Shown here: positions 1-52,200 of the stretch, piece after piece | Numbering within the stretch: position 1 is the first letter of the stretch | Layout of the letters: each line of letters starts with the position of its first letter | Source of the DNA: Beroe forskalii | Lineage: Eukaryota > Ctenophora > Nuda > Beroida > Beroidae | Assembly (NCBI GenBank): GCA_011033025.1 | Contig: WFMF01000402.1 | Span: 1 to 64,000, forward strand | DNA: 64,000 nucleotides | Direction of reading: 5' to 3' | Notes under the pieces: generated by a model | What the model was told of the DNA's origin: nothing | What the model saw: only the letters and a program-made list of their open reading frames with translations | The model's database searches: none | Position numbers and translations under genes: made by a program

Positions 1-2340
1 GGGATCTTCCTGAGGGAGAGATGGGATTAACACTAGATACTGGCCTCTGCACTAACTTCCATCCAAACTCTTCCTGGGGATCTTCCTGGGGGGAGGGTGG
101 GATTAACACTAGGATACTGAGTCACCGTGCACTAACTTCCATCCGAACTCTTCCTGGGGATCTTCCTGGGGAGGTGGGATTAACACTAGGATACTGAGTC
201 ACCGTGCACTAACTTCCATCCAAACTCTTCCTGGGGATCTTCCTGGGGAGATGGGATTAACACTAGGATACTGAGTCACCGTGCACTAACTTCCATCCAA
301 ACTCTTCCTGGGATCTTCCTGGGGGAGGGTGGGATTAACACTAGGGGATACTGGGTCACCGTGCACTAACTTCCATCCAAACTCTTCCTGGGGATCTTCC
401 TGGGGAGATGGGATTAACACTAGGATACTGAGTCACCGTGCACCAACTTCCATCCGAACTCTTCCTGGGGATCTTCCTGGAGGGGTGGTGGGATTAACAC
501 TAGGATACTTGGTCACCGTGCACTAACTTCCATCCGAACTCTTCCTGGGGATCTTCCTGAGGGGAGGATGGGATTAACACTAGGATACTGAGTCACCGTG
601 CACTAACTTCCTGGGGATCTTCCTGGGGGAGGATGGGATTAACACTAGGATACTGAGTCACCGTGCACTAACTTCCATCCGAACTCTTCCTGGGGATCTT
701 CCTGAGGGGATGAGGGGATTAACACTAGTATACTGAGTCACCGTGCACTAACTTCCATCCGAACTCTTCCTGGGGATCTTCCTGAGGGGAGGGTGGGATT
801 AACACTAGATACTGGAGTCACTGGGTAACTTCCATCCGAACTCTTCCTGGGGATCTTCCTGAGGGGAGGGTGGGATTAACACTAGGATACTGAGTCACCG
901 TGCACTAACTTCCATCCGAACTCTTCCTGGGGATCTTCCTGAGGGGAGGGTGGGATTAACACTAGACTGAACACCGTACCTTCATCCGAACTCTTCCTGG
1001 CGAGGGGAGGGTGGGATTAACACTAGGATACTGAGTCACCGTGCACTAACTTCCATCCGAACTCTTCCTGGGGATCTTCCTGAGGGGATGATGGGATTAA
1101 CACTAGGATACTGGGGATCTTCCTGAGGGGATGATGGGATTAACACTAGGATACTGGGGATCTTCCTGAGGGGAGGATGGGATTAACACTAGGATACTGG
1201 GTTACCGTGCACTAACTTCCATCCGAACTCCTCCTGGGGATCTTCCTGAGGGGAGGGTGGGATTAACACTAGGATACTGGGGATCTTCCTGAGGGGAGGG
1301 TGGGATTAGCACTAGGATACTGGGGATCTTCCTGAGGGGAGGGTGGGATTAGCACTAGGATACTGAGTCACCGTGCACTAACTTCCATCCAAACTCTTCC
1401 TGGGGATCTTCCTGGGGGAGGATGGGATTAACACTAGGATACTGAGTCACCGTGCACTAACTTCCATCCGAACTCTTCCTGGGGATCTTCCTGAGGGGAA
1501 GGTGGGATTAACACTAGGATACTGAGTCACCGTGCACTAACTTCCATCCGAACTCTTCCTGGGGATCTTCCTGGGGGAGGTGGGATTAACACTAGGATAC
1601 TGGATACTGCACTCACCATCCAAACTCTTCCTGGGGGAGGGTGGGATTAACATAGGATACTGAGTCACTGCACTAACTTCCATCCGAACTCTCTTCCTGA
1701 GGGGAAGGTGGGATTAACACTAGGATACTGAGTCACCGTGCACTAACTTCCATCCGAACTCTTCCTGGGGATCTTCCTGGGGGGAGGATGGGATTAACAC
1801 TAGGATACTGAGTCACCGTGCACTAACTTCCAGCCAAACTCCTCCTGGGGATCTTCCTGAGGGGAGGGTGGGATTAACACTAGGATACTGAGTCACCGTG
1901 CACTAACTTCCATCCGAACTCCTCCTGGGGATCTTCCTGAGGGGAGGGTGGGATTAACACTAGGATACTGAGTCACCGTGCACTAACTTCCATCCAAACT
2001 CTTCCTGGGGATCTTCCTGAGGGGAGGGTGGGATTAACACTAGGATACTGAGTCACCGTGCACTAACTTCCATCCGAACTCTTCCTGGGGATCTTCCTGA
2101 GGGGAGATTGGGATTAACACTAGGATACTGAGTCACCGTGCACTAACTTCCATCCGAACTCTTCCTGGGGATCTTCCTGAGGGGAGGATGGGATTAACAC
2201 TAGGATACTGGGTCACCGTGCACTAACTTCCATCCGAACTCTTCCTGGGGATCTTCCTGAGGGGAGATTGGGATGAACACTAGGATACTGAATTACTGGG
2301 TCACCGTGCAACAACTTACTGGGGATCTTTCTGAGTTCCT
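1..2340 (-). repeat. 80-bp minisatellite of a TM9SF splice acceptor and exon start
   Basis: Roughly 29 tandem copies of an 80-bp unit, with some partial or shortened copies; the array reaches the left window edge. Read on the minus strand, each unit is an intron end (CCCTCCCCTCAG) followed by 45 nt that translate as [15 protein letters not shown]. That is the conserved TM9SF2/4 segment just after the first transmembrane helix. After these 45 nt the unit diverges and an in-frame TAG follows three codons later. The genuine exon should therefore lie left of position 1, and the copies here are intronic decoys. Copies differ at synonymous sites (GAA/GAG, TTC/TTT). Confidence 0.9.
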
Positions 2341-49200: not shown

Positions 49201-52200
49201 GAAATGAGACAGCTTTGAATCAGCTGAAATTCGAATCTACTATCCATAAATTCTCAACTGTGAATTCCAAACCTTGTTCATTACACTTCGGTTCTTCTCC
49301 ACTAAAAGTGAAGGTTGTCCCACTGTCACAGGTTATAGAACTGTCACCCCTCAATTCTATGTTAGATGCTGGGTTACAGGACACTATAACCTCTGTTCCG
49401 TACACTACAGGGAATTGTGTGCTCGTTTCTTGATTAACTGCCCCTTCTGGCAGTCCAGTGCACATTTCTGAGGAGTGGAGGAATGAGTCTAAACATTGAT
49501 TTTGGGTGTAAAAGGAATGTAACTTGATGGAATTACTTTTATTCTTTCATGAAATCAAAATATGTCTAAAAATCTAAAAGTGATAGTGATTTAGCTTACT
49601 TTGAATGCAGGCGACACTTCGTGTCACTGAGAAGGTTGTGTCCCTGACACAGGTGATCCCACTCGCCCCACTCAGTGTAAACCCCTCCTCGCATCCCACT
49701 GGCATGAAGTCCCCGAACTCTTTGGGAAAGGTCGCTGTAGTTGTGAAGTGGAGGGTGTCGTCTCCAGTGTCGTCTCCGTCGTCGTTTTGTTGAAGGTCTC
49801 CAGCAACTTGAGGCAGACCGGAGCAGGTGTCTGACAATTTGATGAGGTTTCAATGAAAATTTTTAGGCTGTGTCCTCTGCAAATTAGAATTACTTTGAAT
49901 TGTGTTATGATTTTACTGTTGGTTATGGACCCTTCTTTAATATTCCATCATTCGAGCCCGGTGCACCTTGACCGGTCAGATCTTAATTTAAACAAGACGA
50001 CATTTCTCTCACCTCTAGCACAAGAAGGCGCTCCTCCAGAAGGATATTGATAGTCTGTATCCAGAACACAAGTCACAGAACTTGATCCACTTAGAGAATA
50101 TCCCATGTCGCATGCCACTTGGATTATAGTCCCGGGAGGGACGGGAAAATCCCCAGTAACTAGCCCCATGTTAACCCAAGTTGGATACAGGGCCGTGCAG
50201 GATTCTGAGTTATAGCGGGATTTTTCGTTTTGTTCGCATGAAGGAAAGAAAATAATTTATTAGAATAGGTTTTATTGTTCCAATATGGGGATTTTGTAGG
50301 TACAGCTAAGTGAAAATTTCAGTCCCGGCGTCCCACTATTAAGGTAGGTTTGTACATCAAAATATCGACTGTTCCATATATGAGGGATATGTCACAAAGT
50401 CATTTGAGGGTTATTTCTAATGGTCACAAGTGTTTCTTACCACAAGCAGTTTGATCGCTACTGACTACGGATCCGTCTGGACATTCTGAACAGATACCCG
50501 CCCCACTAGCACTGTACTGGTTGTCTGGACACTGCTGACAGGAAGCTATGCTGGTGCCTCTATAGGTCCCAGCGACACAGGGGGCTGAAGTCGCATGAAA
50601 AATTTTATGAGATGATCAAAGTAACGTGGTGCTTTAGTGGAATTGTTGTTATAATTGCACTTGCTGGAGGAGGAGCTGGAGGAGGAGTGTAAATTACATA
50701 ACACTGATCAATAATCACACGAGGCAAAACCGAATTTGCTCATTGCCTCGATTTCAGCAGCAATTGTACTACGACACACTGCAGACCATCTCATATTATT
50801 TTTTTTTTTTAATTTTCAATTTTAAGGTTTAACTTCTATTCCAACAGCTGAAACAGCCAATGACCGGAATCGAAGACTTTGATTCTGCATTGAAATAGAT
50901 CACATTAATATCAGAACTCACTACATTCGGTTGCACCGTCCCTTAGATCATATCCAGTTGGACAGCATTTGCCACCAGAGTCAGAAGGTACAAATGACCC
51001 CTCCGAACATGCACCTGAAACATGGTATTACATGCCCCCCCATGTTTTTTGGAATTCACCTCTTTTGGAGTTAAATAAATCAATCAATAAAACATGATTT
51101 AAGTAAAACTAGCGAGGCCTTGGCCCCAGTAGGTCTAGAAAGTCTGTAATGTGGCATGACCTGCATATTGAGTTTGAAGGAGACACGCTTATATGCTATT
51201 TTGATATTTAAGTGGCGCTGAAAAGCACAGCCTTAAGTGAAATGGTCGATGTGATGAATATCAGACTGTCGCACATGATGCTAAAATGATAAAACACATC
51301 TTGAATGCTGCTTTAACGACCACGAAGGCCTAAGTTGATTTCAATCACTACAGGTGTACTTACAATCACTACTGTAATTCACTACAAGTTTACTTACAGT
51401 CGCTACAAGTGTACTTACAGTCGCTACAAGTGTACTTACAGTCACTACCAGTGTACTTACAGTCACTACAAGTGTACGTACAGTCACTTCAAGTGTACTT
51501 ACAGTCAGTACTTACAGTCACTGATTGAGGTGGATCCCGGAAGAGAAGTGGTCCCCTCTGGGCAAGCCGCGCACTCCGTATCAGACTGCTTGTACTGACC
51601 CTCTTCACACGGTGCACATCCTTCCCTAGTCAGGATTTCATTTTCTGCAGTGCACGGCTCTGAAAGATAAGGCATTGGTCCTGTGGCCAGAAACCGTGGC
51701 TTTATGACTGATTTCATTTCAGGTCACATGAGCGTTACTTAACTTGTCATTAAAACGGCAATTTCAAGCCGCAATTATGGAATTATATCCATATCCCTAT
51801 TGACATAGACACAAACACTTAAACAAAGTCATGTAGTTTTACGTTTGTCTGAAACAAGTCTGGCTCATGATTGATTATTCGACCGAAGTTTATGCACTCA
51901 GCACACCGGTCGATAAACCCTACCACTGCAATGCGTAGATCCAGGCACTGATACCAACCCAGCGTCACAATTTGTACATGACCTGGCATTGGCCTCGCTG
52001 TATGTGTTTTGAGGGCAGATGTTTGAGTTGACGCCCTCCAACCAGTATCCAGCACTGCATCCTGTGTGATAGAATAATTAATCGGCTGAAAAGTGAAAAC
52101 ATTTAATAGCGAATAATAATAATGTTAATTAATAATAACGAGTGTACGATAGTTGATACGTTTTGGGAAAAGGTTCTGGTCAGTGGTCTGTTGAAACTGT

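Follow-up and report, generated by a model that had tools for sequence, protein, structure and literature searches.

Introduction

In amphioxus, minisatellite-like duplications spanning an exon–intron boundary are known as 'mirages'. Excerpts of two reports (PMC3087553, PMC3902484) describe them in Adh3, the globins BflGb6 and BflGb9, TnC and PGBD5. According to these excerpts, they occur at acceptor and donor sites, with a unit length specific to each gene. The AG or GT is kept in many copies, copy number differs between haplotypes and regular splicing is apparently undisturbed. Here, arrays of the mirage kind are described in the ctenophore Beroe forskalii. The DNA analysed (the window) comprises positions 1 to 64,000 of contig WFMF01000402.1 (C473 below) in a 216 Mb assembly. 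On contig C1134 of this assembly, COX1 (translated with code 4) matches Beroe forskalii at 100% identity over 507 residues, and the nuclear contigs very likely come from the same animal. In this window, exon edges of a TM9SF gene, an ADPGK gene and a gene containing sushi and ephrin-receptor-like exons have been copied in tandem on the intron side.

The host is thus a ctenophore rather than a cephalochordate, and the splice sites used here are predicted from sequence. Published mirage units, as given in the same excerpts, measure 10–72 bp (Adh3), 60 and 108 bp (PGBD5) and 150–160 bp (globins), whereas the Beroe units measure 21–80 bp and are present in 6 to 29 copies. A preliminary description of this DNA had taken such arrays to be unprecedented, a claim that the amphioxus work removes. 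Among the matches listed in the open-licence literature, and as far as their excerpts go, no published case was found of ctenophore minisatellites of this sort or of splice-edge repeats outside lancelets. Within the same limits, the Beroe arrays are the first outside that group.

Internal tandem duplication of a segment carrying splice signals reportedly makes new introns, as Rogers 1989, Zhuo 2007 and Gao and Lynch 2009 are said to have described. In that case a new intron arises; in Beroe, a pre-existing junction has multiplied within the intron that it borders. For human segmental duplications, an excerpt on variable internal tandem repeats describes minisatellite expansion that alters gene structure between paralogues (PMC2812944); that system differs in that it concerns human paralogues lying in segmental duplications. 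In ctenophores, the excerpt of the Hormiphora genome paper gives 14 Mb (13%) of repeats detected with Tandem Repeats Finder (TRF) and holds nothing on splice edges (PMC8527503).

Results

Exon edges are copied in tandem in three unrelated genes

Arrays in the window were called with TRF, which gave 32 merged arrays at a score of 50 and 19 at a score of 100. Random sequences with the dinucleotide make-up of the window (n = 20) averaged 0.2 arrays at a score of 50 and none at 100, so the window arrays are not a product of chance. In four of them, A (80 bp × 29.5), B (64 bp × 18), C (72 bp × 16) and E (21 bp × 6.3), each unit contains both exon and intron bases. The preliminary description had counted a fifth array, D, at about 3902–3997; TRF confirmed the other four, and D proved to be a duplication with two copies only, below array level. 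Both intron ends are affected, the acceptor in A, B and C and the donor in D and E. The additional copies are located toward the intron. The coding copy ends arrays B and C, and the exon-side end of array A was found on another contig, C267. The units of A, B, C and E are mutually unrelated by inspection, which rules out one spreading repeat family, and array B has a single match genome-wide in a search skipping very common words. The three genes are themselves unrelated (EMP70/TM9SF, ADPGK and the gene with sushi and ephrin-receptor-like exons). On all these points (junctions amplified in tandem with different units, intronic position, unrelated genes, no common repeat) the preliminary description was borne out for A, B, C and E. 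The tandem copying of exon-edge junctions on the intron side, in unrelated genes, is confirmed as a real feature, and an uncommon one. Similar edge arrays occur elsewhere in the genome, in one myosin gene (contig C225) and in two chaperonin (TCP1) gene copies (contig C558).

The TM9SF gene lies on the minus strand and its identity is supported by EMP70 matches; its exons gave no match when compared with Protein Data Bank (PDB) sequences. Array A (positions 1–2291, from TRF and unit alignment) consists of about 29 copies of an 80 bp unit that holds the acceptor CTCAG and 45 nt of exon. It reaches the start of contig C473, and the true exon is outside the window. Its exon-side end on contig C267 (locus L076:2473–3590) shows 14 copies followed by the coding exon. 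Array A broke the assembly, and its copy number is >40 if the C473 and C267 parts belong to one allele without overlap. Array B (5186–6338, from TRF, units and the stop test described below) contains the acceptor CCTTCTCTTTCAG and 51 nt of exon in 18 units of 64 bp. Its 18 intact acceptors equal the TRF copy count, and its last copy runs into the coding exon at 5124–5236, whose first 51 nt (EHVEETFYLLNHVNFTI) are those copied in the array, as judged from unit alignment and splice sites. Duplication D (3902–3997) holds the donor TACAG/GTACGT (the slash marks the junction) with about 24 nt of exon in two copies of 59 bp; an EMP70 match lies at C473:3949–4131. A further TM9SF exon (SILNSMVIVLFLSGMVAMILLR...LDP) stands upstream of array A at 2601–2706 (EMP70 match at C473:2604–2717, donor read by eye). 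On contig C267, two matches to the 3′ half of TM9SF, inverted relative to each other, surround the end of array A (L076, C267:91266–113166), which is perhaps a haplotype or hairpin join. A stretch of array A copies at L076:2050–2470 has a low-quality look.

Array C is located in the ADPGK gene, on the plus strand (33827–34978, from TRF and units). Its 72 bp unit holds the acceptor ...CTCCCTCAG and 33 nt of exon (KRIVVGIGGCL). The 16 intact acceptors again equal the TRF copy count, and the last copy continues as the coding exon at 34946–35124, which was placed with homologues and splice sites. The ADPGK relatives P0001 and P0002 read LPQN-KRILVGVGGCLD across the junction, and three relatives (77, 77 and 61% identical) have no extra residues there; these proteins presumably come from transcripts. 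A search of PDB sequences returned the known enzyme 5ccf, and the protein is 39% identical to that of Branchiostoma belcheri; this low identity and the COX1 match rule out a lancelet as the source of the window. At 36020–36090, an ADPGK exon ending in ...QNEK is followed by no good GT donor where the relatives predict one (sequence AAAAGATACGG); this may be a non-canonical donor, an error or a variant.

Array E (51379–51515, minus strand; TRF 51379–51511) copies the donor AGTGACT/GTAAGT in about 6–7 units of 21 bp, each carrying 7 exon bases. Its exon-proximal copy is coding and forms the end of the ephrin-receptor-like exon (51516–51659, minus strand, Pfam PF07699) of the sushi-containing gene; this exon ends at AGTGACT/GTAAGT.

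Acceptor decoys meet in-frame stops

For the acceptor arrays A, B and C, the reading frame was followed from each acceptor decoy to the end of the coding exon. An in-frame stop was met before that end in all decoys of B (17/17) and C (15/15), in 12/12 decoys of array A on C267 and in 27/29 of those on C473, where the remaining two run into the contig start. The stops announced in the preliminary description were therefore found. Because the decoys meet stops, we infer that the exon-proximal copy is the splice site used.

Exon parts of the copies vary less than intron parts

Variation between copies was analysed in the equal-length units of the window (13 for A, 14 for B and 15 for C). Variable sites amounted to 8/129 in the exon parts and 19/87 in the intron parts (Fisher P = 0.0013), so that the exon rate is about a quarter of the intron rate. 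In units free of exon-part indels, seven of the nine distinct exon substitutions relative to the coding copy were synonymous, where 17–32% were expected depending on the array and on transition weight (P = 0.0003–0.002). Given that acceptor decoys cannot be coding, this synonymous bias suggests that the coding copy may re-template their exon parts or exchange sequence with them. What is new here is that exon parts vary slowly and mostly synonymously though nearly all decoys would meet stops.

Sister gene copies with and without arrays

Contig C558 carries two inverted TCP1 copies (175301–178301 and 214001–217001) that differ at 16/482 bases in three internal exons. One intron is 243 bp long with an acceptor array in one copy and 132 bp long with one acceptor in its sister. 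Another is 333 bp long in that sister, with three donor units of which the third is degenerate, versus 290 bp with a single donor in the first copy. The two copies, which differ in unit number, may be paralogues rather than alleles. The pair shows array births and is useful for dating them. The junction homology is AGAA in the TCP1 acceptor array (read by eye), 3 bp in array B and 0 in array C. In a kinase gene (L012:2270–2346), a 36 bp tandem duplication covers the stop codon, and its second copy lies 3′ of the stop used. This shows the same tolerance at a functional edge unrelated to splicing.

Edge position compared with random placement

The preliminary description had proposed that minisatellites start preferentially at splice junctions. 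An independent sample was needed, as the window had been picked for its edge arrays. Introns were defined by homology in two unrelated families, myosin head and TCP1, for which the genome gave 78 and 45 matches. Fifty-nine and 34 of these, respectively, entered pairing, mostly in or beside the retrieved stretches. The 74 adjacent pairs yielded 53 introns; 18 pairs were set aside because the profile gap lay outside −17..5 or sequence was missing, and three lacked an acceptable splice pair. Among the 53 retained splice pairs, a few have low scores. Stretches were picked by exon density and not by arrays, with the qualification that the repeats of C785 and C465 had been partly listed before the longer retrieval. 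The null model placed one unit at random in the intron stripped of its extra copies and thus depends on unit length versus intron length.

The sampled introns have a median length of 206 bp and are touched by 20 arrays. Three of these cross an edge, against 3.04 expected (P = 0.62), and among the nine strong arrays (score >=100) three cross an edge, against 2.06 expected (P = 0.34). The edge-crossing arrays are a myosin acceptor array (34 bp × 7.9), a TCP1 acceptor array (31 bp, 2 exon bases) and a TCP1 donor array (37 bp, 12 exon bases). Such overlap is expected without targeting because introns are short relative to units of 30–70 bp. No array confined to exon sequence was found in the 53 introns extended by as much as 120 nt into the adjacent exons. 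Arrays at L038 and L058 were considered as donor arrays and ruled out, as they lie upstream of acceptors, from which they are separated by 21 and 7 nt. In this small sample, the intersection of arrays with exon edges does not go beyond chance (3 observed versus 2.1–3.0 expected), which gives the proposal of preferential initiation no support. The proposal is unproven; the test has little power and a mild hotspot is compatible with it.

Other repeats

Two arrays in the window stand close to acceptors and copy no edge. A 9 bp array (ACTGACAAC; 2714–2858, minus strand, TRF) is intronic and ends 9 nt before the acceptor belonging to the TM9SF exon at 2601–2706. A 12 bp array (ATAACCCCCTGT × 32; 32897–33288, plus strand, TRF) ends a few nucleotides upstream of TAG/GTATGG, the acceptor-like site preceding the ADPGK exon with the start codon. 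At 53260–54480, a short repeated element whose ends resemble AGACTAGCAGGCCCGTTGGGCCTGC is present in several consecutive copies and looks like a small non-autonomous element. Beside a myosin gene, a satellite-like array of six 329 bp units occupies L063:3838–5814.

Discussion

The Beroe arrays are probably mirage-type minisatellites that result from ordinary tandem duplication in short introns, pass a selective filter at functional edges and then evolve in concert with the coding copy. Small tandem duplications with 0–4 bp of junction homology would arise at many positions in a short-intron genome. Those falling inside exons would mostly be purged unless in frame. Those straddling an edge would survive if the copy adjoining the coding sequence stays intact, the remainder becoming intron. 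Slippage or unequal exchange would then multiply the extra copies. The coding copy would remain a member of the array and would keep re-templating it, and for this reason the exon parts of decoys would bear the mark of purifying selection.

Several observations weigh against this account. Exons are not closed to repeats, because tandem repeats stand inside apparent coding frames at 26467–26535 and 42521–42745 (15/30 bp and 18 bp). Array coverage is higher in the window (14.5% of bases) than in the stretches sampled for myosin and TCP1 (7.2%) or at the kinase loci (4.8%). The variation tests draw on three arrays, which taken singly give P = 0.019 (A), 0.27 (B) and 0.12 (C). Pyrimidine tracts might mutate faster, an alternative that applies to the variable-site comparison and not to the synonymous count. 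That count sets aside the units with exon-part indels (10/42 in A, 3/18 in B and 0/16 in C). Every acceptor AG is kept in B and C. Among the strong arrays of the independent sample, five touch acceptors or end within 25 nt of them, where 1.8 were expected (P = 0.015); for the same count of five, 2.1 were expected at a score >=70 (P = 0.033) and 3.0 with all arrays (P = 0.16), and this acceptor test was devised post hoc. In the window, which was chosen for its arrays, 4 of 11 arrays cross an edge in 29 modelled introns plus that of A, against 1.6 expected (P = 0.046); for this count A and D were entered manually at estimated lengths, some splice sites are weak guesses, and E was not scored as an edge array, its TRF start lying 4 nt inside the intron.

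The last two excesses would be accounted for if arrays arose preferentially at splice junctions, acceptors above all, where a transcription- or splicing-coupled lesion (R-loop, nick or stalled fork) would be repaired by tandem duplication. The acceptor-abutting arrays at 2714–2858 and 32897–33288, a further one in a kinase locus and the parallel occurrence in lancelets also point in this direction. However, edge-crossing arrays were not above random placement in the sample, the acceptor test is post hoc and loses significance when every array is included, donor edges are likewise copied, and the stop-codon edge of the kinase gene gives the same pattern. The acceptor-side excess hints at some acceptor bias and is inconclusive, and we regard a splicing-coupled origin as unlikely. 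A two-part proposal, in which minisatellites of both lancelets and ctenophores have a weak birth hotspot at splice junctions, particularly at acceptors, and in which arrays exchange with the coding edge so that exon and shadow copies evolve in concert, likewise strikes us as rather doubtful.

It is quite improbable that the decoys are functional, that is, a reservoir of splice sites serving to reinforce intron definition or to channel splicing into non-productive mRNA. Such a role would fit the intact acceptor AGs in 18/18 copies of B and 16/16 of C, the small and mostly synonymous variation of the exon parts and the stops met in every traceable acceptor decoy of A, B and C. Yet most read-through into introns would be expected to meet stops and young arrays to keep intact sites, exon parts carry indels in both A and B, and the sister TCP1 copies do without the arrays.

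A role as intermediates of intron gain, with an internal copy turning into a new exon or intron, was proposed for amphioxus globins in an excerpt of PMC3087553, and the Beroe units do contain AG or GT sites; no new exon or intron was seen here, the three ADPGK relatives have no extra junction residues, and this reading is very unlikely. As for expansion or misjoining of repeats by the assembler, the break at array A, the features of its C267 side noted above and the amphioxus BflGb6 array reported in an excerpt as aberrant in a draft assembly (PMC3087553) would suit it, but arrays B and C are unbroken with single-copy distinct variants and unique flanks, the same kind was found independently in the myosin and TCP1 loci, and amphioxus arrays are backed by traces, reverse transcription-PCR or re-sequencing (excerpts of PMC3087553 and PMC3902484), so that an artefact can be dismissed almost entirely.

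The placement null, in which unit length is set against intron length, is a benchmark that any claim of targeting must beat. Sixteen to eighteen near-identical consecutive acceptors constitute a natural experiment on the choice of sites by the spliceosome in short introns. Exchange between a coding edge and its intronic copies, if true, would expose conserved genes to a mutational risk. Finally, an oddity of gene structure known from lancelets is extended to an early-branching animal phylum, and mirages would accordingly be either general or recurrent in compact genomes.

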